Origin: Tubulanus polymorphus
Taxonomy: Eukaryota; Nemertea; Palaeonemertea; Tubulaniformes; Tubulanidae
Assembly (NCBI RefSeq): GCF_964204645.1
Contig: NC_134029.1
Coordinates: 1,807,001 to 1,871,000 of the forward strand
Length of the DNA stretch: 64,000 nt
Direction: 5' to 3'
The position numbers and the translations under genes are program-made. Below, piece after piece: positions 23,100 to 53,282 of the stretch. Positions within the stretch are counted from its first letter, which is position 1. Every line of letters begins with the position of its first letter. The notes beneath the pieces are model-generated. The model was given only the letters and a program-made list of their open reading frames with translations, searched no databases and was not told the DNA's origin.

Positions 23100-26000
23100 A
23101 TGGAGTCGGAAGAAGAAAAAGGAGAGACGATATACGGGTCGATGGGGACCCTAGAAAGTGACAGTCACGTCATGTCTGAAAGGGTACAGTCTTTAGCCGC
23201 GAGTATTTATCAGGAGTTCGAACGGATGATTAAAAAATATGACGAAGACGTAGTGAAAGCGTTGATGCCTCTGGTTGTCGGAATTCTAGAGAATTTGGAT
23301 CAGTCATTTTTGGACAAACAGGAAAATGAAGTGGAAGTTGAATTATTACGAGACGATAACGAACAACTTCTGACGCAGTACGAACGTGAAAAACAGCTGA
23401 GAAAAGCAGCCGAACAGGTATTTATATCTAACAGTACGCCGAATTAGGAACTACTCGTGGCACTGGGCCCCCATTTCCGCTATCGATATAAAACTGATTT
23501 GTTTCAACTTCTTAAAATCATTTTCAGAAATTGTTAGAGATCGAAGACCAGAGCGAAGAAGAACGAAAAGAAATGACTTCGAAAGTGGAAAGTTTAGAAT
23601 CGATATCGCGTATGCTTGAATTGAAGGGAAAGAATGCTCAAGATCACGGTAAATATTCTTAATAAATCTTCATCCAGTGGCTGTTCCGCTGTGCCTACAG
23701 CTGTCTCTAAGGTCAGCCTACAGCTGTCTCTAAGGTCAGCCTACGCCTACTGGTCAGCCTACCGCACCGAGCTGATTGTTTAGTGGGTGTTTGTATTATT
23801 TTCAGTTACTCGTTTGGAAGAAAAAGAAGGAGAAATGAAAAAGGAATACAACAAACTTCACGAGAGATACACGGAATTATTTAAAACCCACATGGATTAC
23901 ATGGAACGCACTAAAATGCTGATGGGAACTGATCGTCTAGCTGATATGGGAATTAGTCCTAAAGTCAGGTGAGTTTTTCGAACAATTCTCATATTTTCGC
24001 ATCGGTCGACGTTGTTTTAATATTTGCCTCTCTATTTCTAGGGGTGGACTAGCGTTACCGAATTTGCGCCACGTATTCCCGGCCACGCCCGGATCGGTGT
24101 CAGGGGATACCCCGAAATCGGGCAGTTCTCCGCCGTTCAGCATCACCTCTCCGATGAAGGGTCCCGATAATTCACAGAATTTACAGAACGAACTGAACGT
24201 GGATAAGAATCGTAATCAGCGCGGTGTGACGCAGGTTACTGATTGTGGACAGGTTACTGATACTGTACAAGTCACTGAATCAGGAACCAGTAAGTTCTTC
24301 GTGCCTCTATATTTGCTCCTATTAATTCTTAAGCTTTAAAAGTTTCCAGGTATTTTGAATTGATATGCATTCTGAATGTTATTAAATTCTCTGATCACCG
24401 ATGCATGGTTTGCAAAGCATTTCATTTCATTGAAAATTACCGCGAGTGACTTTATTTAGTTTCGCAAATGAATTCAAATTCATACCCACAGCTTTGTACG
24501 TCGGTGTTGCCTTTTATACAAAGAGACAGAAACTTGAGTGTAAATAATTGAATTCCGTGTTATTTTATTTTCTATGTTATTAGCCCCTAAAGGTAAAACA
24601 GCTTTCGTCAATGTTTATTCACATATTTGTTTAGGGTTTAGATTTTTCTATTCAGTTTAATTTTAATTTTCACCTTCGTATATACACATATATATATATA
24701 TATGTATATTCATTTATATATCACTATCTGCTTGGATGAAGGGATTAATGGATCTAAGAGGATTAGGATTATCTATTAATATGATTAGAAATGCGAGCTA
24801 CTTAACATAATATAGATATATTCATTTATCATGTGATTGTAATATCTCAGTGAAGAATAGTTGGTCTTTCTATGAAAATAACTAAATGAGCTACCTATTC
24901 AATATCAGGGGTCCAACCCTGCATCAGACTGATACTGTAACATCAGAGCTGTTGGTGGTTTCCTGACTTTGTTGATGGAATATTTAGGATAAACTAAGCC
25001 TGCCTGCCCAGGAACTAGTCCTAGTCCACACGGGTAGATGGATAGTGCGAAGTACAGAGAGACTAGCACATTTACCTATGGGTGCCCGAATTATTTCTAA
25101 AATGTAGCTTGCTTAAGGGATACAAACCCTGTCATCTCAATATCTTCAATCCTATTCAATAGGTCATGCCGCGCATCAATTTCAGAAAGTGTTCTTGTCG
25201 TCCGTTTGTTGTGGGTAGTTAACAGATCAGGAATTCAAATCCCTCCATTTTAACCCGAATTAAATATCCTTCGTAGGGAAACTATTCAAATATTTGCTTT
25301 TCTCTTATCTATATGTTTTTATGTCTCGCTGTGTTGTTTCTTTTGCATGTGTTTTTTAAGTTTATTTATATGTGCTTGCTATTATTACACGCAGAAAACG
25401 CAGAGGAAATATCTACCACAACCACGCCATCTATAAGTGTGAATTTAAATGAACCTTCGGACAATAATAAAACTGTGGAAGTTAAAGACAGTAAATCTGA
25501 TTCTGCGATTCTGAGTCGGAAAGTTTCCGATACTGTGAATGAAATCGCCGAATTAAGGAAAAACACTTTAGAAGTGCCCAGTCGGGATGGGGCTAGTTTT
25601 CAAGATAGTTTTGAACTATCAATGACACCTCCTGCAATGAAATCACAGCTTGGTGAGTCTATCACTCCTCCATGGTTTATCAGGGATATTTTAAATGAAA
25701 TCTTTCATTGATAAGTGGTCTTTTTATTTATTGCATATCAAATTTGTAAAATATTCTATAATATTTCTCAGGGTGTTAGAGTAGACTAGAAATATGTACA
25801 TTGTTGTGTTATAGATCACGTTTGATATTCACTGAGTTTCTCAGATGTGTTTTGAGATTAAAGGATGAATGTTTGATATTTTGCAGGTATGCATCAGGCT
25901 TTGAATGATATCGTGGCTTCTACGCCCGAATTAGACGATTATGAACCGTTTAATAAATCCAAATCTGCCCCGGTTGGCATGCCAGGAACTAGGTAAATTA

Positions 26001-29000
26001 TTGTGCTGGTATACCCGGCTTTACCGAAGGATCATTCATCTTCCTAAATCCTGGATGTGCCTCGGTTTATAACGACTAACTCTGTTTAAATCTCTCTCAT
26101 AAATGCTGAATTAATGTTGTATGTATTTTCAGTAGTAATGAACCGTCTGTATTTGATGAATTAACGTTTCACGGTCAGGAGTTTATTGGTGATATCGATG
26201 AAGGCGCTGATATAACCGGTAAACAGACCTCCCTCCTTCCAACACCACTTCTCTTATCTATCCTTATATTTCAGCTAAATAATTTATTTGCTCATTTCGT
26301 TTCATTTGTAATCTTAACAAATTCTAGAAATCAAAACATTTAAAAGTGTTTAATATATTCATGCGTAATGTTGATATGAGGAGGGATGATATTTTATTCT
26401 GGTGTTTTTAGGGCAAGCTATCCATCCAGGAGAGTTTGCGTCCCCGGGTTAGTTTCTATAATCATTGCATCTTGTGTATTTCGTTTATATCTATACCCCA
26501 TATATGTTGTAATAAACACCACCTATTGCATGTATAAACAGCTGAAAACTGGGCTTCAAAAACTTGAAATTAGAAATTAGATACTTTGAGTATTGAGTTT
26601 CAACCAGATTTTCGGTTATGTTCTTTGCAATCTATATTTCATTTATGTAAAAATATGATTTATTGTTGTATAGCAAGTTTATTTATACTTCTGTGATGTA
26701 GTGTAGTATTAGTAGCATGTTAGTTAGTGCGAACCTATTTCATCGTTCTGTCACCTTTAGCTCATTATTTTATCTAAACCGAATATAAGCGGTTTATTAT
26801 TAGCGCATTGTTCTTCGAGAAGGCCCCATTTTCATTTAATACCAAAATACATGAAGAATAGGGTGAAAGATACAAAAATAAGTAGCATTAGTAATATAGG
26901 GTAGGGGATAGCAATTGGTGCTTTTATTTGTAAATAATGAACCTAACCACTTCGATAGAACGCTTTAGTTTGTTAGTTTTTCTATACTCACACAGGATAT
27001 AGGACCGGGACATACATTTATTACTCCTGTACAATTAAAACTATATTCAACTAGTATAAACACATAAAATCTGACACACATATGAATTTCCTGTTTGACA
27101 CAAACCCTTCACACATCATTCATTATTCGGCCGCTTTCACTATGATGTATTTTAGATGTTGTAATTGATTGAATGTTATTTTTTTTTTTTCGTGTTTTTT
27201 TTTAAGATGACGAGGATTCTGAGTCTAATATCAGTGGTATGTCATCATCATCCTCCTTTATTAACCTTATAGGTTCAAGGTCAAACCTTATTAACCAATG
27301 TTTAATCTGCTAAACCCCTGGATTATAGAATTTCTGGTTTGGTCTCTATTTATTTGTATTATAAACATTGTTTGATAAGTGATGGTTTTTTGGGTGGTGT
27401 TTCCTGGTATTTGTCTTTTTCATATTTAACCAAGACATAAACATTCACAGAATTAACGGAATCACCTTAAATTAACAGCTAGAATTCTACATACTAAGTT
27501 TAATACGTATTTTCCCCTTAATCTTTAATTCAATCTCCTCAAAGAAATGTGTTAAAAGCCATAACATCTATACATGTATCTAAAACACTGATGAAGTGTG
27601 TGCTGCTTGCTGTCTCTAATACTTACTTTCATTAATCTTTATTTTTATGCATTCATTTATTGCTGCATTGTGTGTTAATTTGGATCCACATTAAATCAGC
27701 GAGTGACAATTTCTTCGGTAAGATTTTGATAACGTTTTCATTCACAGCGTTCTGTTTATTCTTTTTGTTCGTCGCTTCTGGGGTTTATTTCATCAATTAA
27801 ACAGAATGATTTCAATATACTTGGTATTTATTTACATGTAGATCAATGCTGGTGATAGTGCTTAACAATGTATTCTATTTTGATGATTCATCTTAGAAAT
27901 TTTTGGTTACTTTTTCGCATGAATTTTAGTAAATTGACCCTTCCATCAATTTTTTACACACTTGTTAAAGAATTGGTTTTTTTGTGTGTGTTTAGGTATG
28001 GGTAAAGAGGTGGAGAATTTAATACAGGAAAATGCTGAATTACTTGCCACAAAGTAAGTAACAATCTTTAGCTTACGGACAGATCATTAATTCAGATTAT
28101 TGAAATTATGCTGTTTTGTTGATTTTGTAGGAATGCGTTGAATATTGTGAAAGATGATTTGATCGCTAAAGTGGATGAGTTTACGAGGTACGTCACGTCT
28201 GATCCTGTATTTCCCGGCCTTGATTTAACCTCCCCCTAGTGTCTGTGCTATGCTCAACTTTTTATTTTCTTTAATCAGCGAACAGGAAATTCTACGCGAA
28301 GAGATCAACTCGTTGCAGACCGTGAAATCTCGTATGAAATTACGAATCACGGAATTAGAAGAAGAGTTAAAGAAATTCAAGGAAGAATTGGATAAAAAGA
28401 ATCAACAGCTCAATAATGACGACGATGTTAGTATCTTATAATATCAAATCCACAATGAACGAAATGAAAGATTTTAAGACATCAAAAAAATTCCAAATTT
28501 TTCGGTTTTCAACTAAAGGTTTCCTTCCTTGAAAATTTTTTGAAAATTCTTGAGTGTTTAATAAGTCTTTCGGTTTTTCATTTAGTTTGAATTTGACTGT
28601 ATGAATAAACGAAACTTGTTGTTTTTCTATAGGATGAGATTCCGATGGCTCAACGTAAACGATTTACTCGTGTTGAAATGGCTCGAGTTCTCATGGAACG
28701 CAATCAGTATAAAGAGCGTTTAATGGAACTGCAGGAAGCCGTACGGTGGACAGAAATGATCAGAGCCTCTCGCGAACATCCTGACCTCGCTACGGCTAAT
28801 AACAGCAAGAAAAAATCGTCCATTTGGAACTTGTAAGTATTTAACATTCTCTCGAAGTCGATTCCACATTTCTCAGGTTAGATTTAACTCCACTCAGTGA
28901 AAACATTGAATTCATCTGATTTTAACTCTAAGAATCGTAATTAGCTGAGAGATTTATGGAATCTAGTTTTGGTATCCAGTAATTATTATCTGTTCTGAAA

Positions 29001-32000
29001 TATAACAATAGGTTTGAAGACGCGGCTGTATTTATAGTTGATATTGTCTCCAGATTGTGCGTTGAAATCTTTTATACATCTGCATCAACTATGAACTATT
29101 CAAGAGACCAATCAGTTTAGAGTAGATTTTATAGATAGAATTAGAATTTTTTATTGGGGTATAAACTACAGGATATAGCTATTCTGTGCGTCTAAATTAA
29201 TTGTTGATTTTTGAAGAAAATTATTGTGATTTTATTTCAGTTTCGGAGATATGTTTTGGTCTTCAGCTCCCGAGCAAGCGACAGAGCCTATCCCACAACC
29301 CAGTCATCAACGTTCATCTCATAAAAAACATTCCGGCCCCCTTCCTAAATTAGTGTGACGAAAAACCCTCAAAACTTCTCTTACATTCCACAGTCATGTA
29401 GGAAATTATCAGAAATCTAATGTCACGCCTTAGCTTGAAAATTTCATTTTTAAACGTAATCATGTACTGATTTATCAACATCAACACGGACAATTTCGCA
29501 TAGATAAATTCTGGTATAGAATACAGCTTATTCAGTATAGATCTGACTTAAAACTGCTCAGAGATATTATCTGTGATGACCACTTCGTTTTAGTGTAATC
29601 TATTGATGTATATCGGCCAGAAATATACATCAATAATGAAAGTAATTTTCCGAAGTTCATTTTTAAACAGAATGTTGAAGTTTTGATCGATTTAAGTCAA
29701 ATCTCTTTTTAATCTTTGCTGCATTTATAGAAACTAAGATGATGTTTAAATTGGATGGTTATTGATTAGGCAGCTTTCGATTTTGAAATTTCTGTAGTTC
29801 CCTGTGTCTCTACGTGTGATAGAGATAGAGGGACAAAAGTATTTATCAATAGGGGTCGCCGCATGATCAGTATTTCAACTTTCAAATTATTATAGTTTAG
29901 TTTAAACACACCTTATGCATGATTTTCATATATAACAAGCAATCGAATCATTGATATTACAGTTCCATATCTCTTGCAGGTTCCGAGGCCTTATAGACTA
30001 CCCTGTGCTGCCACCTATGTGCCATATTCTGATCCATGTTGATCCCTATTGAGAAATATCTCGTTATTATCGTTTAATGTTACGTTTTTTGTTTTTTCAT
30101 TTTCGTGTTTTTTCTGTGTAATAATGTATAAACTCAGAAAATGGATCGACATCATAGAAAACAGATCATATTTTATTTGAGAAAAGTGTATATTTTAAGA
30201 TAAATTGAAGTTGAATGTTATTATTTAATTAACTTCAAATTTAGATTATTTATGGAAACGGAGCAAATTTTAGTCATATATAAATATATAATTTCATAGA
30301 TGATGTTTGATTAGTGAATGTTGAACATTGTTAAACAATAAATGGTTGAATTCAGAAAATTTGTCTCTTTTTGATTTTGTATTTTTTATCGTAACATAGT
30401 TTTTGGTGTTGGTTTTTTAAATTTTGGTTATTGGGATCACCAGGGATCAGAGTGTGCGTGTGATACATATGGCTCATAGTGGTACCTCCCTTCTTTTGTA
30501 ATTCTATCATTTTGCTTTTCAGAGTTACAGAATTTTACAGAAAATCATTTTTCAACCTAAAAGCTACATTTATGCAATGAGATTTACATTGAAACGATTG
30601 TGTGAAATCTAAATATGTCTGATCATAATCCTGCATCAAATTCATTCTAGAGGCTTTAAGTATTTAATTCTAAATCTATAAATGATTAACATTGAATCTC
30701 ATTGAGTAGATGGAGTTTATATTCATCAATTTTCTGTCCTTCTTTCATCCAACTCAAATCTAAATTCTCATTATTACTGTACGTCTGGAGTCTCGAAACC
30801 TCTCAGGATTTTTCCCTCAGTTATGATCATCATGACCTTGCTTGAATTGTGAGTTGTAAGACTAACGGATCGACAATGTTTGACTTGTGGCTTTCGTGAT
30901 CTTTGAGGATTGAATGAGACTAACCGTGATACCTTACTGAGGAAACCAAAAGCCCCGCACAAAACTGCCTCCTTACAACACTGCCTCCTGACAACTGACT
31001 GACTAAACTATCATATGGGGAACTTTTACTGTATATTTCAGATGGAAAGCCATACCTAAAGATAAGAGGGATCGGTATGGGTGTTTTATAATCATATTGT
31101 CTATAATCGAGTTAGTGGAATAAACTAATCCAGTTTATAGTAACCTTAACAAAAATTCTAATTCTATCTGTCAAATTGTTGGTGTAAGACGCACACACAT
31201 CACTCCAGACATAATACAACAACATTCTACTTTCTAAAATTACCTTTTCATTTACACATGGTCAACTTTCTGGTTTTCCCCTAATGTTTATAATATCCCA
31301 GATTAACATGTTTTATATTGAAATTGGATGCATGCGGAAGAAGGAGGTGAAAAATCAAGAAGCTTCTGATGAGAAAATATATTATTCACAAGATGAGAAA
31401 TCCATACTATTTGTTATTTATTTGTAGCTTCAGTAACTTGTTTAGTTCGTCGAGTAAGCCACCAGGTAGCGCTAAACGAAGTTCACAGACGGCTATGGTT
31501 CGTTATAACGCCCCTACTACTCACGTTCAACCAGTCGGCGACCCGAACAAGAAAAACAGAAAGAACTATAAACTCGGTGATAAAGAGAAAGCGTATGATT
31601 TCTTACAGGAAGAAGCGTAAGTATTAGGTCTTAAATGTTAATGATCGACATCCAGTTCTGCTGGGTTGGTTTCTATAAAGATGAACTAAAAATAGTCTGG
31701 TAATAGTAACTTCTTAAGATCTATAATTCTAAATGACATTTTGGTTAAAACTGTCATTGTAACTTTAGTTTTACCTTACCAGTATTGAGCTATATATACA
31801 CTTGCTAGGGCGGATCTAGGATTTGTAGAAGGCCCTGAAAATTACAATGGGCGCTTCATCTGAAAAGGGCAGATTTGGCAAAAAAAATTCCAGACTTTTT
31901 GGAGGGTAAATTTGAATTTTGAATGTGTTAGACCAGTCCTCCACCCAATCCATCTCCGTAGATCCGCCCTTGGATGGCTTAAGCTTTGATTCTGCTGTCA

Positions 32001-35000
32001 TACCTCATTGAAGTCATACATCAAAGTATCTATTAATTTACGTATTTCTGGTAAATATCAACTAAATTTTCTGAAGATTTGTTTAACGATGTTATTTACA
32101 GCGATAGTGATTCTTCATCTTCATTTGAAATGATAGGCCATGAATCCGGGTAAAATATATTCCCATATATTATCACAACTTCTGATATTCTACACTTTTC
32201 TAAGAGAAAAAAGAAATTCGCTTCAGAATGAAATGGTTTGGGATTTTTAAAACTCTTTCCATCGATACATTTTCTGGAGTTTATGAGCAACTCAATTTCG
32301 CTTCCTTCTTTTGATTTTGTTATTTAAACATCTGCTTGGGAAATGGTGGAATATTTGATCAATTCCTCGGATTTTGCTTTTGAACAGATAATAACTTTTG
32401 CTTCGCTTTTTCAATGTTACGAGGTGAAGGCTGAAGATTAGCAAAAGAATTTCTTCGAGAATTACGCATCATTCATCACCTGGGTATAAACGAGGTAACG
32501 TCGTATTTAACGATGAAGGATCATTATTTTTGTAGATTGAACGAAAAAGCGAAGAAACATCGCGAAAACGAGCGAAGAGAGCAGTATAAACAAGTGAGAG
32601 CTCACGTGAAGAAAGATGACGGTAGAATGCAAGCGTACGGCTGGAGTTTACCGGCTAAATTTCAACCGCTTTCATTACGCGATCCATCGGGGGGAAACAA
32701 GAGTCACGTTCCGGTACCTGTACCAGTATACTGTCGCCCCCTACTGGAGAAAGATCCCGGAATGAAGGTACAAAACAAATAGCTATACAGGGGCCACCTT
32801 GCTCAGAAGATGGTTAAACATAACTGGTGGATAGATACAACTGCTACAATTGAACTTTACAAAAGAACTCTCAATTGTCAACTATCCCACTGTTTACTCT
32901 AACTAACTGTTGAGCGACTGGCCACAGCTGAATCTACCCGACGAGGCCAGTTGCTCAGAAGTTGGTTGAGTAAACCGTTGGATAAATGCCATGATGATAA
33001 TTGGACATGCATTGTGTTAATCAACCAATTAACTCTAACCAACTTTCGAGTGACCGGCCGCTGCAGGTATTCAGATGATTATATGTGATTGTTATTGTTG
33101 AAGATCTGGTGCGCGGCAGGTGTAAATCTGACGGGTGGACGAACTCGCGACGGTGGTTCTATTGTCGGTGCTAGTGTGTTCTATTCGGAACCCCCTGAGA
33201 GTGAAACCACCGACAAACCACCAGAAACCGAGATCGATAAACTAGACAAAGAACTGAAGGTAACTTTAAACAAATCGTCACTCGATGAAACGATGTTTTC
33301 CGATCGATATTGATTTTCGTTCGGTTGAAATTTTAGGATCACGAAGAAAATGTACGAGAAGAAGACGATCAACATATGTCATCGTTTGTATGGATAGTAA
33401 CGTCAACTCACGCGTCGAGTCGTGTCACTGTTATCGATGCTAATAACCCGGCAGATGTATTAGAATCGTTTCATGTATCATCGACTCATATTCTCTGTAT
33501 CACTAGTGTTCCAGGTAATACTCGTTCACATCTGCCAATGTGGCCACTTACTTTGGAAATCAGGGAAAATGTCTGCGAATTATCTTTTGTAATAGTCAGA
33601 GAATTTTGTAAAAAATTTCTGAAAATTATCTTTTACAATTGTCAGAGAATATTTGTATAAAAGCTAAAAGTCGGGGAAATTTGTTGAGATTGCTAGATCA
33701 CGTGTAAAATCAAACAGTTTCCGCCTACCGGGTATGTCTTATGTATTTGTCTGTTAAATGATTACATTCTTAGCAGATGGAGTTGTGGAAAACGACATAC
33801 ATGTCAGGGCAAAAGCATGTCAAATAAAACTGGCCAGCCTGATCTGCTTTTATGTGCTTGTTAAATAGTTAGTCAGCCTTTTATTCGAAAAGTGTTACTT
33901 AACTCGGGATAAGGGTCATTTTGTTCAGGGCGGTTCATTAGTAGATTTGCTTGTTTTGGAACTGGCTCCTTTGCTGTTGTTATCAGATTTTCTGGTAAAT
34001 TTATCGATTTTGTGCCTTTGTAGGAGCTAAAGAGAGTGATTATCCGATAGAGGAACCAGTTATCCCCGATCCGGATATCAATCTACAAGCTAGTCCAGTA
34101 AAACAATCTAATACGACTCCTACTGAAGAGTCGACTAATATCGGAGGTATAACATTCGTTCAATGTGCTACTGGAGGAGCTAGTCACAGTACAACACCTG
34201 TCTCAGGATCACCTACTGGATCACTAACTCGTAGTAAAGGTAATTAATATTCTATCAATCTATGAAAATACATTTAGTCATATTACAGATTATCTGGGGT
34301 TGTAGGGATCTTGCGACACATCTGTGGGGTTTGTACAGAAATCCAAACTCCACAGATGGTTTTCATTAAAAAGTTTTTGAATATTTTGCTTCTGATTTAA
34401 ATAATTCATTTAACGTATTTTTATATTCACATTAATCTCCCTTTTATCCATTCCATCGTCCTTTAGTACATATACGTATATATATATCATTGTAATGATG
34501 AGGATGATCTTGAAAACTGCACGAATTTGATTTCATGAGATGAAAAACAGTGTTTAGTATTAAGTTCTGTATCTGTCTGTACACAGAGAGTAGTCCTGAA
34601 AATACGGAGGATCTAGCTGCAGTATCTGCAGCGATACAGGCAGTAGCTGGAAAACGTAATAAAGCTTCAGCAGGTAATTTAGCATGTTGCGTGTAACCCT
34701 TACCCTTCAAATAACTCAAGTAATTAGTTCAGGGTCCGGTTTCAAGACTGGGTTATAATTCGGGTGAACATTTGATAATCTACGATCAATCTGTCCCTAC
34801 AGTAGAATAAGTTAATCATGGTTTCTGTGATTGAATAAGTTGCTTCAATCAATTGAATTGAGGAGTTATATAGAGATAGATTGAGTCTGATTCTCAGCAC
34901 CTATTATATTTTTCTGGGTTTAACAGTGCCAGTAGTTGGAATAGATTCTGATGAAGGTAAATTACCTGTTTGTGCCGTGTTTTTGTTGTTGGGAAATTGA

Positions 35001-38000
35001 CAAATATTTCAGTGTATTTTTGCTTTCTAATCGAACGCACAGCATTCAACGCTATTTGAGTAGATGTATAAGAAATGCATGAGTGTAGTGAATCTAATAT
35101 TTTAATTCATCAAAATAGTTGTTTCATGGAAGTTCTTGCTAATATTTTCTGTATGGATGGTACATTGAACTCAGCATATCAGGTCTATGTATATATATAT
35201 ATATATAGGCCTATATATATATATGTATGTATATTGGTATAGTATATAGAGCGTATATGTGGTATATAGGTGTTGTATGGTGTGTGTATTACAGGAGATC
35301 CTCTCGGTGCTATTGTAGATGGATCACAGATTAAAGCTACAGTAATCCGCGCGACGGGAGAACCGGCATCTTCGGGGAAAACCAGTCCGACTGCAATCAG
35401 TCCAGATGAGAAACGATTACTGAATGAACCGTCAGATGTCGTTAGAGATGGAATTTATGGAGTCGAAGATAATGTCCTCGTTTCAGAGGTGGAGAAAATG
35501 TCATCTAGCGTTTTACCTACGATGTGGTTAGGGTCTCAAAGTGGCAGGTTAGTTAGTGTCTCATGCTATAAACGATGTGGTTAGGGTCTCAAAGTGGCAG
35601 GTTAGTTAGTGTCTCATGCTATAATACTGAGACCTGAAGTGACAGTGGTATTATCGTAAGGACTGCAGTGAACTACATTCATTCAGGACTTGAAGAAACC
35701 TGTTAACCATTTCAGTGTGTGACTGGTTTCAGTTTCATATGTGACTGGTGCTGGCATCTTTTAATGGAGATAAAAACTATTTACACCAATACATCGCAAT
35801 GCGGTGTACTAACAAAGTCCATCATCAATTTATACGCGGCAGGATTTAAAGATACAGTGGATGATTATAGAATTGTATGTTGTTTTATTCTAGTTTATAC
35901 GTTCATTCGGCTGTTTCTCACTGGAGAAGATGTCTTCATTCTGTCAAACTGAAAGATTCAGTACTTCATATTGTGTAAGTGTCTAGCTGTGATACATCGC
36001 TGTGCTCCTTATGAAGACCATATAGAAATAATTTGAAATATTCTAATTGAATTATAGGTCAGTGAAAGGTCGGGTATTAGCGGCGTTAGCAGACGGAACG
36101 GTTGCAATATTCCACAGAGCTACAGGTATGTAAACACTGGTTTACCCCTCACTCCTTCACAAATATAGCAGCTGTTTGGATTAAGCCAAAGGTTACCTCA
36201 TCGATCGAGGATTCATGGTGGCAGAGTTTTATTCCGGTTACTGTTTGTATATTCATAGATGGACAGTGGGATTTAACGAACTATCATCTGTTAGACCTCG
36301 GACGACCGCATCACTCGATACGCTGTATGACAATAGTAGCCAACAAATATGTGTGGTGTGGTTATAGAAATAAAATACATGTCGTTGATCCTAAAACGAT
36401 GAAACTCGAGGTCAGTTTATATTGTATGAATCTATAAAATCTGCTGCTCTTTCAATTTCTGATCTCTAATATGAAATCATGTTCGTTTTAAGAAATCATT
36501 CGATGCACATCCGCGTAAAGAGAGTCAAGTGCGGCAGATGGCTTGGGTTGGAGATGGTGTTTGGGTATCTATTAGATTAGATAGTACACTCAGATTGTAT
36601 CACGCGTACACACAGGAACATTTACAAGATGTTGACATTGAACCTTACGTCAGCAAAATGTTAGGTAAGTAGAAATACACAAACCAGTCATATTACTCGA
36701 GGAGAGGGCACTGTATGCTAATGAATGTGTGTTTATAGGAACTGGTAAACTTGGATTCTCATTTGTAAGGATAACATCACTGCTGATATCGTGCAATCGA
36801 TTGTGGATTGGAACTGGAAATGGAGTCATCATCTCGGTACCTCTCTCAGAAGGTATGTATTTACAGTCAAAGTCATCCTAGCCGGGACAATCATTGATAC
36901 GTTGACTTAACCAGAAGATGAATTTGACTTAGTGAATAGAATCAGAAATATGAATGAAGACTCAGTGACAGCAGTTCGTCTATACTATCAAACGAAAACC
37001 ACTTGATTGAAAATGTCTTCAATTTCTGTCTGAATATTTCAGGTAATAAAGTTCCAGTGAACGCGTCTGGTACGGCTGGTAAACCCGGAGGGGTCATACG
37101 TGTTTACGGCGATGCAGCCAGTGATTCTGTAACTCCCGGTACATTCATACCTTATTGCACGATGGCGCAAGCTCAGCTTTCCTTCCACGGTCATCGCGAT
37201 GCTGTCAAATTCTTCGCAGCAGTTCCAGGTATAATCATTGATCCTCCCTAATCACTTATATATTTAACTTGAAATTAAGAGTTGATTTTATCTATGATGC
37301 AGTGCATTTACAGTAGAAAAATTATAACAATTCAGTTGAAAGGCAATGGGACATTCACATATAAGTTATCTCCATATTGTATTGTTTTTCTTCAGCGGTG
37401 TCTAAGTCAAAACGCTTACTACCTGAGGACACTAACAGTACGGTTCTATATAATATTTACATACGCATAATCTTTGTTTCGGGAATGATATAACTAGTAC
37501 AGGGTGAAAAAGTTGTGCGTCTGCATTAGCTACTAGACTGGTTTACAATAAGTCTATTTTCAGCCAGGTTTTTGCACCTTAGATAACCTTTATAAACACC
37601 TTTCTTTTTACATACTCTATCTAGCCAAAATATACTAGCAATGTAAAATACCTTATAAAATTACTTTCCTTACGATATCTGCAAACTTTACTGCATTAAC
37701 ACAGCCTAAAAATCACTAAATACTTACTAACCCTTCAGTCAGTTGAGAGAGAACATACCCCTGCTAACCCTGAAACTAGCTACTAGAGGTTGTTTGAAAT
37801 AATGTGCATTAATTAAATCTAACAGTATGGTGGTCCGATCGATCTCTTAGTTTGGTCAAACAGCAAAGAACTTAAGTATATAATAATAATCTATGTATAA
37901 TAATATCATATGATTATCATATGTTTGATATGTTTTCTATTCTATTGTTGTACATTATCTAAAAAACCTATTTTAGTCTTGGATTCTGTTTATGTTATTC

Positions 38001-38610
38001 AATTAATTAGACAATATCAACTGAAATGTGATTTTTACAGATAAGGATTGATAGGATTTCTATTACTTGTAGGTCCTCTTGCCAAAGGAATCAGTTCTGC
38101 ATCAATTTCCTCATCAACTGACGATAAAAACAACTTATTATCGAGTCGTAAAACGAAATTAGTTATCTCTGGTGGTGAGGGATACATTGACTTCAGAATC
38201 GGTGAGTCTTACTGTGTTTAATGCATTTGGAAATGAATGAGTTTCATTCAATTGTGTGCCCTATAGGCTCTTAGTATATGACCAGTGAGCCTTAGAACTA
38301 CGTAAATTATGATGACACAATTGCCCTCGTGTGTCCCCTCAAAACCATAGAAAGTCACGGACAACTGGTCACAACCCTAGCTGGCCAATCATATGAGCCC
38401 ACTCAAAACCATAGATAGTCATTCATGAATAACTGGTCATAACTCACTCATGAGGGAATGAGAGCAGTGAATAAATGATTGTTTACTGTTTCAGGTGATG
38501 GAGATGAGGATGAAACGACTATAGTTGGAGTCGATGAAGAAAGGAAATGTAATATAGGGCGAGCCGATCGTAGTCACCTTATTGTCTGGCAGGTGTCAGC
38601 ACCTTCTTGA
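23100..38610 (+). CDS. MAPK8IP3/SPAG9: JNK-interacting protein 3/4 scaffold (sunday driver family)
   Basis: Scaffold linking kinesin-1/dynein, ARF6 and JNK signalling to axonal and endosomal transport. Exons: 23100-23417, 23528-23648, 23806-23968, 24042-24289, 25395-25652, 25887-25992, 26133-26218, 26412-26447, 27207-27236, 27700-27717, 27996-28053, 28131-28187, 28279-28426, 28633-28832, 31428-31616, 32102-32149, 32536-32767, 33104-33259, 33337-33514, 34024-34239, 34587-34673, 34927-34956, 35295-35547, 35894-35974, 36058-36125, 36259-36410, 36493-36664, 36739-36852, 37043-37228, 38073-38201, 38495-38610. The sum is 4254 nt, 1417 residues (human ~1320-1340). RH1 domain near residues 25-90 ([16 protein letters not shown]); coiled coil and leucine zipper near 450-550 ([15 protein letters not shown]); RH2 near 555-605 ([20 protein letters not shown]); WD40-like half from about 1000 ([40 protein letters not shown], ending [12 protein letters not shown]). 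Several microexons and an alternative terminal exon are described separately. Confidence 0.95.
26412..27717 (+). other. Cluster of three in-phase microexons of JIP3/4
   Basis: The exons are 26412-26447 (36 nt, [13 protein letters not shown] across the junctions), 27207-27236 (30 nt, [10 protein letters not shown]) and 27700-27717 (18 nt, ASDNFF). All are multiples of three and lie in the same phase with AG/GT borders, so each can be skipped without a frameshift. Their introns are large compared with their size. This is the pattern of regulated, often neural, microexons in scaffolds of this family. That they are alternatively spliced is inference. Confidence 0.75.
29241..29358 (+). CDS. Alternative terminal exon of JIP3/4 (short isoform)
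   Basis: The acceptor TTTTATTTCAG precedes an open segment in the same phase (2) as the regular next exon at 31428. It encodes [13 protein letters not shown] and ends PLPKLV with a TGA at 29356-29358. The regular exon begins [13 protein letters not shown]. The shared FFxx(L/M)FxSS pattern suggests exon duplication. Joined to the first 14 exons it gives 1965 nt, 654 residues: RH1, coiled coils and RH2 but no WD40-like half. About 1 kb of untranslated sequence follows, with AATAAA at 30337-30342. Confidence 0.7.
29359..30365 (+). terminator. Probable 3' UTR and poly(A) site of the short JIP form
   Basis: Non-coding, AT-rich sequence after the alternative stop, ending at a canonical AATAAA (30337-30342) followed within about 20 bases by a T/GT-rich tract (TTTGTCTCTTTTTGATTTTG). 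This is what a functional intronic polyadenylation site would look like. Confidence 0.5.
31042..31074 (+). other. Candidate 33-nt cassette exon of JIP3/4
   Basis: A 33-nt segment bordered by ATATTTCAG and GTATGG has the phase (2 in, 2 out) needed between exon 28633-28832 and exon 31428-31616. It would add [10 protein letters not shown] between the RH2 region and the FSNLFSSSS segment. It is not needed for the full-length model, so it would be an optional exon. The support is splice-site quality and phase only. Confidence 0.4.
31807..31970. mobile_element. Small fold-back element with AGGGCGGATCTA ends
   Basis: Perfect 12-bp terminal inverted repeats, AGGGCGGATCTA at 31807-31818 and TAGATCCGCCCT at 31959-31970, bound 164 bp of non-coding sequence in a JIP intron. 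This is the structure of a non-autonomous DNA transposon (MITE). Confidence 0.7.
32788..33062. mobile_element. Two adjacent fold-back elements, GGCCAGTTGCTCAGAAG family
   Basis: The first runs from GGGGCCACCTTGCTCAGAAG (about 32789) to GAGCGACTGGCC (about 32922). The second runs from GAGGCCAGTTGCTCAGAAGT (about 32943) to TTTCGAGTGACCGGCC (about 33059). Both have inverted ends and a GTTGGTT/AACCAAC inner pair, and the two copies are clearly related. They lie between two JIP exons and are non-coding. Confidence 0.65.
35521..35626 (+). repeat. 53-bp tandem duplication spanning a JIP splice donor
   Basis: The unit starting GATGTGGTTAGGGTCTCAAA at 35521 recurs at 35574. It includes the last 27 bases of the exon ending at 35547 and the following intron start, so the donor CAG/GTTAGT is present twice, at 35547/35548 and 35600/35601. 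Use of the second donor would add 53 nt and shift the frame. Confidence 0.85.

Positions 38611-44282: not shown

Positions 44283-47111
<2,829 letters not shown>

Positions 47112-49747: not shown

Positions 49748-53282
<3,535 letters not shown>

Follow-up and report, generated by a model that had tools for sequence, protein, structure and literature searches.

JIP3/4 sets when dynein and kinesin collect their lysosomal and vesicular cargo; the FFxxL element that switches it off has been known only since 2024. In the JIP3/4 gene of Tubulanus polymorphus, intron 14 contains a stop-bearing open stretch behind an in-frame acceptor, which raises the question of whether this stretch serves as an alternative last exon and what a protein ending there would retain of the switch. 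The gene lies in a 64,000-nucleotide stretch of DNA, hereafter the window, all positions of which are counted from its first letter.

The JIP3/4 gene (23100–38610, plus strand) was rebuilt via splice signals and reading frame and comprises 31 exons that encode a single uninterrupted protein of 1417 residues. The gene model and the splice-site matrices used below are derived from this one gene only. The segments relevant to the long and short forms are the following:

23100–23417, plus strand: exon 1, with the start codon and the RH1 domain (protein residues 29–91), by PF09744 and the gene model
27996–28426, plus strand: exons 11–13, leucine zipper II (JIP_LZII, protein residues 461–531; first residues in exons 9–10), by PF16471
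28633–28832, plus strand: exon 14, RH2 helix and branch point between the long and the putative short form, by 8pr2_B 524–568 and the gene model
31428–31616, plus strand: canonical exon 15, which completes FFSNLF (autoinhibitory helix) and runs on to the C-terminal half, by the gene model
32102–38610, plus strand: exons 16–31, linker and WD40-like half (PF19056), missing from the predicted short form, by the gene model and Pfam

The encoded protein contains all five JIP3/4-family features examined, namely RH1, leucine zipper II, a JIP-type RH2, an FFxxL helix after RH2 and a WD40-like half. RH1 matches PF09744 (53.5 bits, cut-off 24), leucine zipper II matches PF16471 (114.6 bits) as well as PDB entries 6ejn and 2w83 over residues 463–532, and the WD40-like C-terminal half, encoded by exons 15–31, matches PF19056 (150 bits). 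The first half of the protein aligns with human JIP3 chain 8pr2_B from dynein-dynactin structures (E = 6e-110). In this alignment, the Val-Val pair of RH1 is kept, RH2 is near-identical to residues 524–568 of the chain, and the Spindly-like motif reads VFDEL here and LYHEL in human. By analogy with human JIP3, RH1 is the docking site for both the dynein light intermediate chain (DLIC) helix and the autoinhibitory helix. The canonical helix after RH2, FFSNLF, matches the reported FFxxL motif (PMC7615804) in sequence. No second JIP3/4 gene was found in the genome, whose sole other RH1 gene, on contig C2, is RILPL.

Several further features were observed in the gene and its surroundings. The strongest unused acceptor of the gene precedes a 42-nt open in-frame stretch at 37396–37437, a likely cassette exon between exons 29 and 30. 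A perfect 53-bp tandem duplication at 35519–35624 repeats the last part of exon 23 along with the donor site that follows, and use of the second donor would hit a stop. A 108-bp tandem duplication at 51144–51369 (97% matches) doubles 36 codons in an open frame whose translation looks like a membrane protein, and an intergenic GC-rich minisatellite of about 20 copies of a 45–46-bp unit occupies 44833–45777.

Exon 14 ends at 28832 with SSIWN followed by TT|gtaagt, so that intron 14 lies in phase 2 and interrupts the codon for the first Phe of the FFxxL helix. The acceptors before 29241 and before 31428 are both in phase 2, and the exons behind them begin FFGDMFWSS and FFSNLFSSS, respectively, in agreement with the initial annotation, which had reported a shared phase and a common FF-x-x-(L/M)-F-x-S-S start. 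From the first of these acceptors the frame continues to a stop at 29356–29358 and provides a new protein end of 39 residues. The 654-residue short protein claimed earlier is reproduced exactly when the 14 upstream exons are spliced to 29241, and the predicted translation and Pfam agree with its description as the product of a stop-bearing alternative last exon, with RH1, coiled coils and RH2 and without the WD40 half. The parts of the candidate exon are:

29241–29358, plus strand: candidate alternative last exon, coding part, ending in TGA, by the acceptor, codon and motif tests
29359–30360, plus strand: putative 3′ UTR of the short form, assigned by position; GC drops to the intron level past the stop
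30337–30342, plus strand: AATAAA followed by T-rich sequence, presumed to be the poly(A) signal for the short form, by its downstream T share

A further description of this exon as a duplicate of the canonical one is not supported. No similarity was detected between the DNA of the 29241 exon and that of exon 15 (p = 0.55), and the similarity of their proteins is weak (p = 0.07) and concentrated in the first nine residues. These values reveal no detectable homology and so do not support a tandem duplicated, mutually exclusive exon pair. Either the duplication is old or the common start of the two exons has been preserved by function.

In human JIP3, residues 570–582 form a helix that carries the FFxxL motif of the DLIC helix, binds RH1 and blocks dynein (Singh et al. 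2024, PMC7615804). A JIP3 fragment of residues 1–582, which retains this helix and lacks the WD40 half, does not activate dynein significantly above the full-length protein; the fragment 1–560 without the helix activates dynein, and replacement of both Phe residues by Ala frees 1–582 from inhibition (PMC7615804). Analogous helices are reported in all members of the RILP family (PMC7615804). The DLIC of the T. polymorphus genome carries the same helix, NFFNSLLSKK. By its sequence, the FF-x-x-(L/M)-F element common to both exons is the autoinhibitory DLIC-mimic helix, an identity that the initial annotation overlooked. Intron 14 thus splits the FFxxL off-switch at its first Phe, and either downstream exon completes the motif, as FFSNLF or as FFGDMF. 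Because the shared motif corresponds to a known autoinhibitory helix, the 29241 exon would do more than truncate the protein; it appears to keep the off-switch yet remove the C-terminal half, and mere truncation by a stop-bearing exon would need no rebuilt FFxxL helix. Elsewhere in intron 14, a possible 33-nt in-frame cassette lies at 31042–31074 (acceptor 7.8 bits). Its inclusion would part the two Phe residues, change FFSNLF to RFSNLF and break the autoinhibitory helix, but its weak donor (2.3 bits) makes it only a lead.

The acceptor, codon and motif tests concur, and are partly independent, in placing the 29241 exon beyond chance. The acceptor scores 9.9 bits, a value reached by only two of the 495 non-canonical AGs in the introns of the gene, 29241 itself and 37396, which stands above it; 24 of the 30 used acceptors score no higher in a leave-one-out comparison. 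Codon usage, judged against that of this one gene, resembles the exons and not the introns in the 29241 frame (+4.0), whereas the two remaining frames score −10 and −7; the +4.0 also exceeds the score of every one of 281 overlapping open intronic stretches of 38 codons. Simulation of intron sequence leaves 7.2% of sites open over 38 codons, and 0.23% of these open sites attain such a score, which gives a joint chance of 1.7e-4 per site. The TT at the end of exon 14 allows only F or L as the first residue of the motif, with F arising from TT|T or TT|C, and this residue is therefore not evidence; the informative residues of FFGDMF are the second F, the L/M position and the next F. With the exons of this gene left out, the two strands of the window contain 6404 AGs, and 29241 is the only one that would give an FFxx(L/M)F motif after TT. 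The simulated rate of the motif is 3e-4; because six non-canonical acceptors in intron 14 score 7.7 bits or more, this corresponds to a chance of about 0.2% for the intron. The candidate exon has a GC content of 0.47 compared with an intron mean of 0.33. Its DNA is single copy, neither exon nor tail having a second copy in the genome, and the stretch is therefore not a repeat.

These results bear on the possibility that 29241 is merely a decoy acceptor followed by a chance open frame, used hardly or never and yielding no short protein. Open frames of this length are not rare (4.6–7.2% of intron sites are followed by 38 open codons) and an AATAAA is expected about once per kb, but a strong acceptor, coding-like codons in one frame only and FFxx(L/M)F coincide at a single site, and these features are each rare and largely independent; a chance origin is therefore unlikely. 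The AATAAA at 30337 has a downstream T share of 0.55, the highest among the 15 copies of this hexamer listed in the gene and immediately past it, although taken alone it is weak evidence for polyadenylation because the hexamer is common in the DNA of the window (0.83 per kb). Its T-rich downstream stretch nevertheless fits an ending better than a poison cassette, in which the in-frame stop would be spliced on to exon 15 and lower JIP3/4 through nonsense-mediated decay, with the peptide irrelevant. A donor-like site at 29641 (5.2 bits, within the used-donor range of 3.3–11.4) would serve such a cassette, which would require neither the coding-like codons nor the FFxxM motif, and we regard this explanation as very improbable. 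Within the putative 3′ UTR, a GC-rich island at 29980–30052 follows a fair acceptor and is open for 24 codons with non-coding codon usage. An exon from this second acceptor was considered and is not claimed, despite the fair acceptor, because its codon score (−7.3) is at the non-coding level and is exceeded by 43% of controls.

A third alternative accepts the exon and questions its helix. FFGDMF has Met in place of Leu and Gly-Asp in the middle, which may weaken the helix of the short form, and its amphipathic moment is 0.51, compared with 0.68 for the canonical helix. If these changes, with the extra Trp, led to poor RH1 binding, then the short form would be a de-repressed dynein activator, as is known for JIP3 constructs without a working FFxxL, which activate dynein strongly; F576A or L579A disrupts the contact between the helix and RH1 (PMC7615804). 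However, both Phe residues and a large hydrophobic residue at the Leu position are kept, and together with the next Phe this combination is unique among the AGs of the window. The mean hydrophobicity of the 29241 helix is moreover higher than that of the canonical helix, and a helix without a role should have drifted. A de-repressed activator is judged quite unlikely.

The balance of the evidence tilts slightly towards the remaining reading, in which the alternative last exon in intron 14 (29241 to about 30360) gives a 654-residue protein that is autoinhibited, resembles RILPL and would act as a competitor or partner of the full-length adaptor. This proposal builds on the computed frame, phase, signals, codon bias, motif, domains and matching RILPL intron, from which we infer RNA use, helix binding and competition. 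Splicing to 29241 rather than to 31428 would yield a protein in which RH1, LZI, the Spindly-like motif, LZII and RH2 precede the new 39-residue end; there the exon would rebuild the helix as FFGDMF and then stop. The short form would presumably still dimerise and use LZII to bind ARF6 or kinesin light chain and RH2 to bind RABs, and it is expected to retain the site for DLIC and kinesin heavy chain, while its own helix would hold it off dynein. Because FFxxL is the autoinhibitory helix, the predicted short form would have its off-switch rebuilt and its TMEM55B and WD40/RUFY binding lost; the TMEM55B-binding motif lies around human residue 895 (PMC12393467), and the WD40 half binds RUFY in fly (PMC12772503). 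Mixed dimers with the full-length protein could form through LZII.

Fly data are in line with the competitor role that had been suggested for this form. Syd without its WD40 half still interacts with DLIC, KLC and Rab2 and no longer with RUFY (Lund et al. 2026, PMC12772503). In the syd-z4 allele, a premature stop at codon 514 costs flies most retrograde transport (PMC12772503), and a natural short form should therefore be a brake or competitor; by analogy, the earlier suggestion fits this similar fragment. No natural WD40-less JIP3/4 isoform was found among the open-access papers searched, a set that omits most subscription papers. If the proposal is true, it provides a natural case in which splicing drops the cargo half and retains the switch, and it would allow a direct test of the contribution of the WD40 half and of the relationship between JIP3/4 and RILPL.

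The RILPL gene of this genome (contig C2, minus strand) was identified by RH1, by PF11461 over its full length and by a PDB RILPL2 match. One of its introns matches JIP3/4 intron 14 in position and phase (ESGIRK-TT|gtaagt) and is followed by two candidate last exons, FFKFLRNSSSR and a stop (acceptor 8.0 bits) and FFTGLLEKLAFDD and a stop (5.5 bits), both of which begin with FFxxL. These candidate alternative last exons lie at C2:26171237 and 26171748 (minus strand), and past the stop of the first the frame is open for 25 codons (GSRSYNSSPQTHRAATNIPPADLVI). The predicted JIP3/4 short form has the RILPL layout of RH1, coil and RH2 without WD40 and a short tail after the FF helix, and the matching intron and FFxxL candidate last exons indicate that it would copy the anatomy of the RILPL gene. 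It may work like RILPL but is not one, because it scores 12.2 bits with PF11461 (RILP-type RH2), below the cut-off of 24.8, whereas the true RILPL of the genome scores 59. No significant similarity was detected between the tail of the 29241 exon and the RILPL tail (p = 0.36). JIP3/4 and RILPL are reported to be antagonistic on lysosomal tubules in mammals (PMC12459091). A bolder reading, which we hold only tentatively and consider unlikely, is that the gene from which RILPL and JIP3/4 both descend ended in a short FFxxL exon behind this intron, that the WD40 half was added downstream, and that the old ending at 29241 still makes an autoinhibited RILPL-like antagonist of the full-length adaptor.

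Among known systems, RILPL1 and RILPL2 of the RILP family share with the predicted short form the RH1-coil-RH2 arrangement without WD40 and, in this genome, the position and phase of the intron. They differ in being encoded by a separate gene and in having a full PF11461 RH2, and leucine zipper II is a JIP3/4 feature. Human JIP3 1–582 (PMC7615804) likewise consists of the N-terminal half with RH1, LZI, LZII and RH2 and ends right after FFxxL without WD40, but it is an engineered truncation shown to be inhibited, whereas here the same boundary is predicted to arise from a natural exon, which adds 30 new residues as a tail. The Drosophila syd-z4 allele and the Syd-N2 construct (PMC12772503) also represent a WD40-less N-terminal half, which in Syd-N2 binds DLIC, kinesin light chain and Rab2; these are a mutation and a laboratory construct rather than a natural isoform, and the mutant loses axonal transport strongly. 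Alternative last exons with intronic polyadenylation in other genes similarly combine a skipped acceptor, a stop and a poly(A) signal within an intron, and the 29241 exon differs from them in that it would rebuild a known autoinhibitory helix that is split by the intron.
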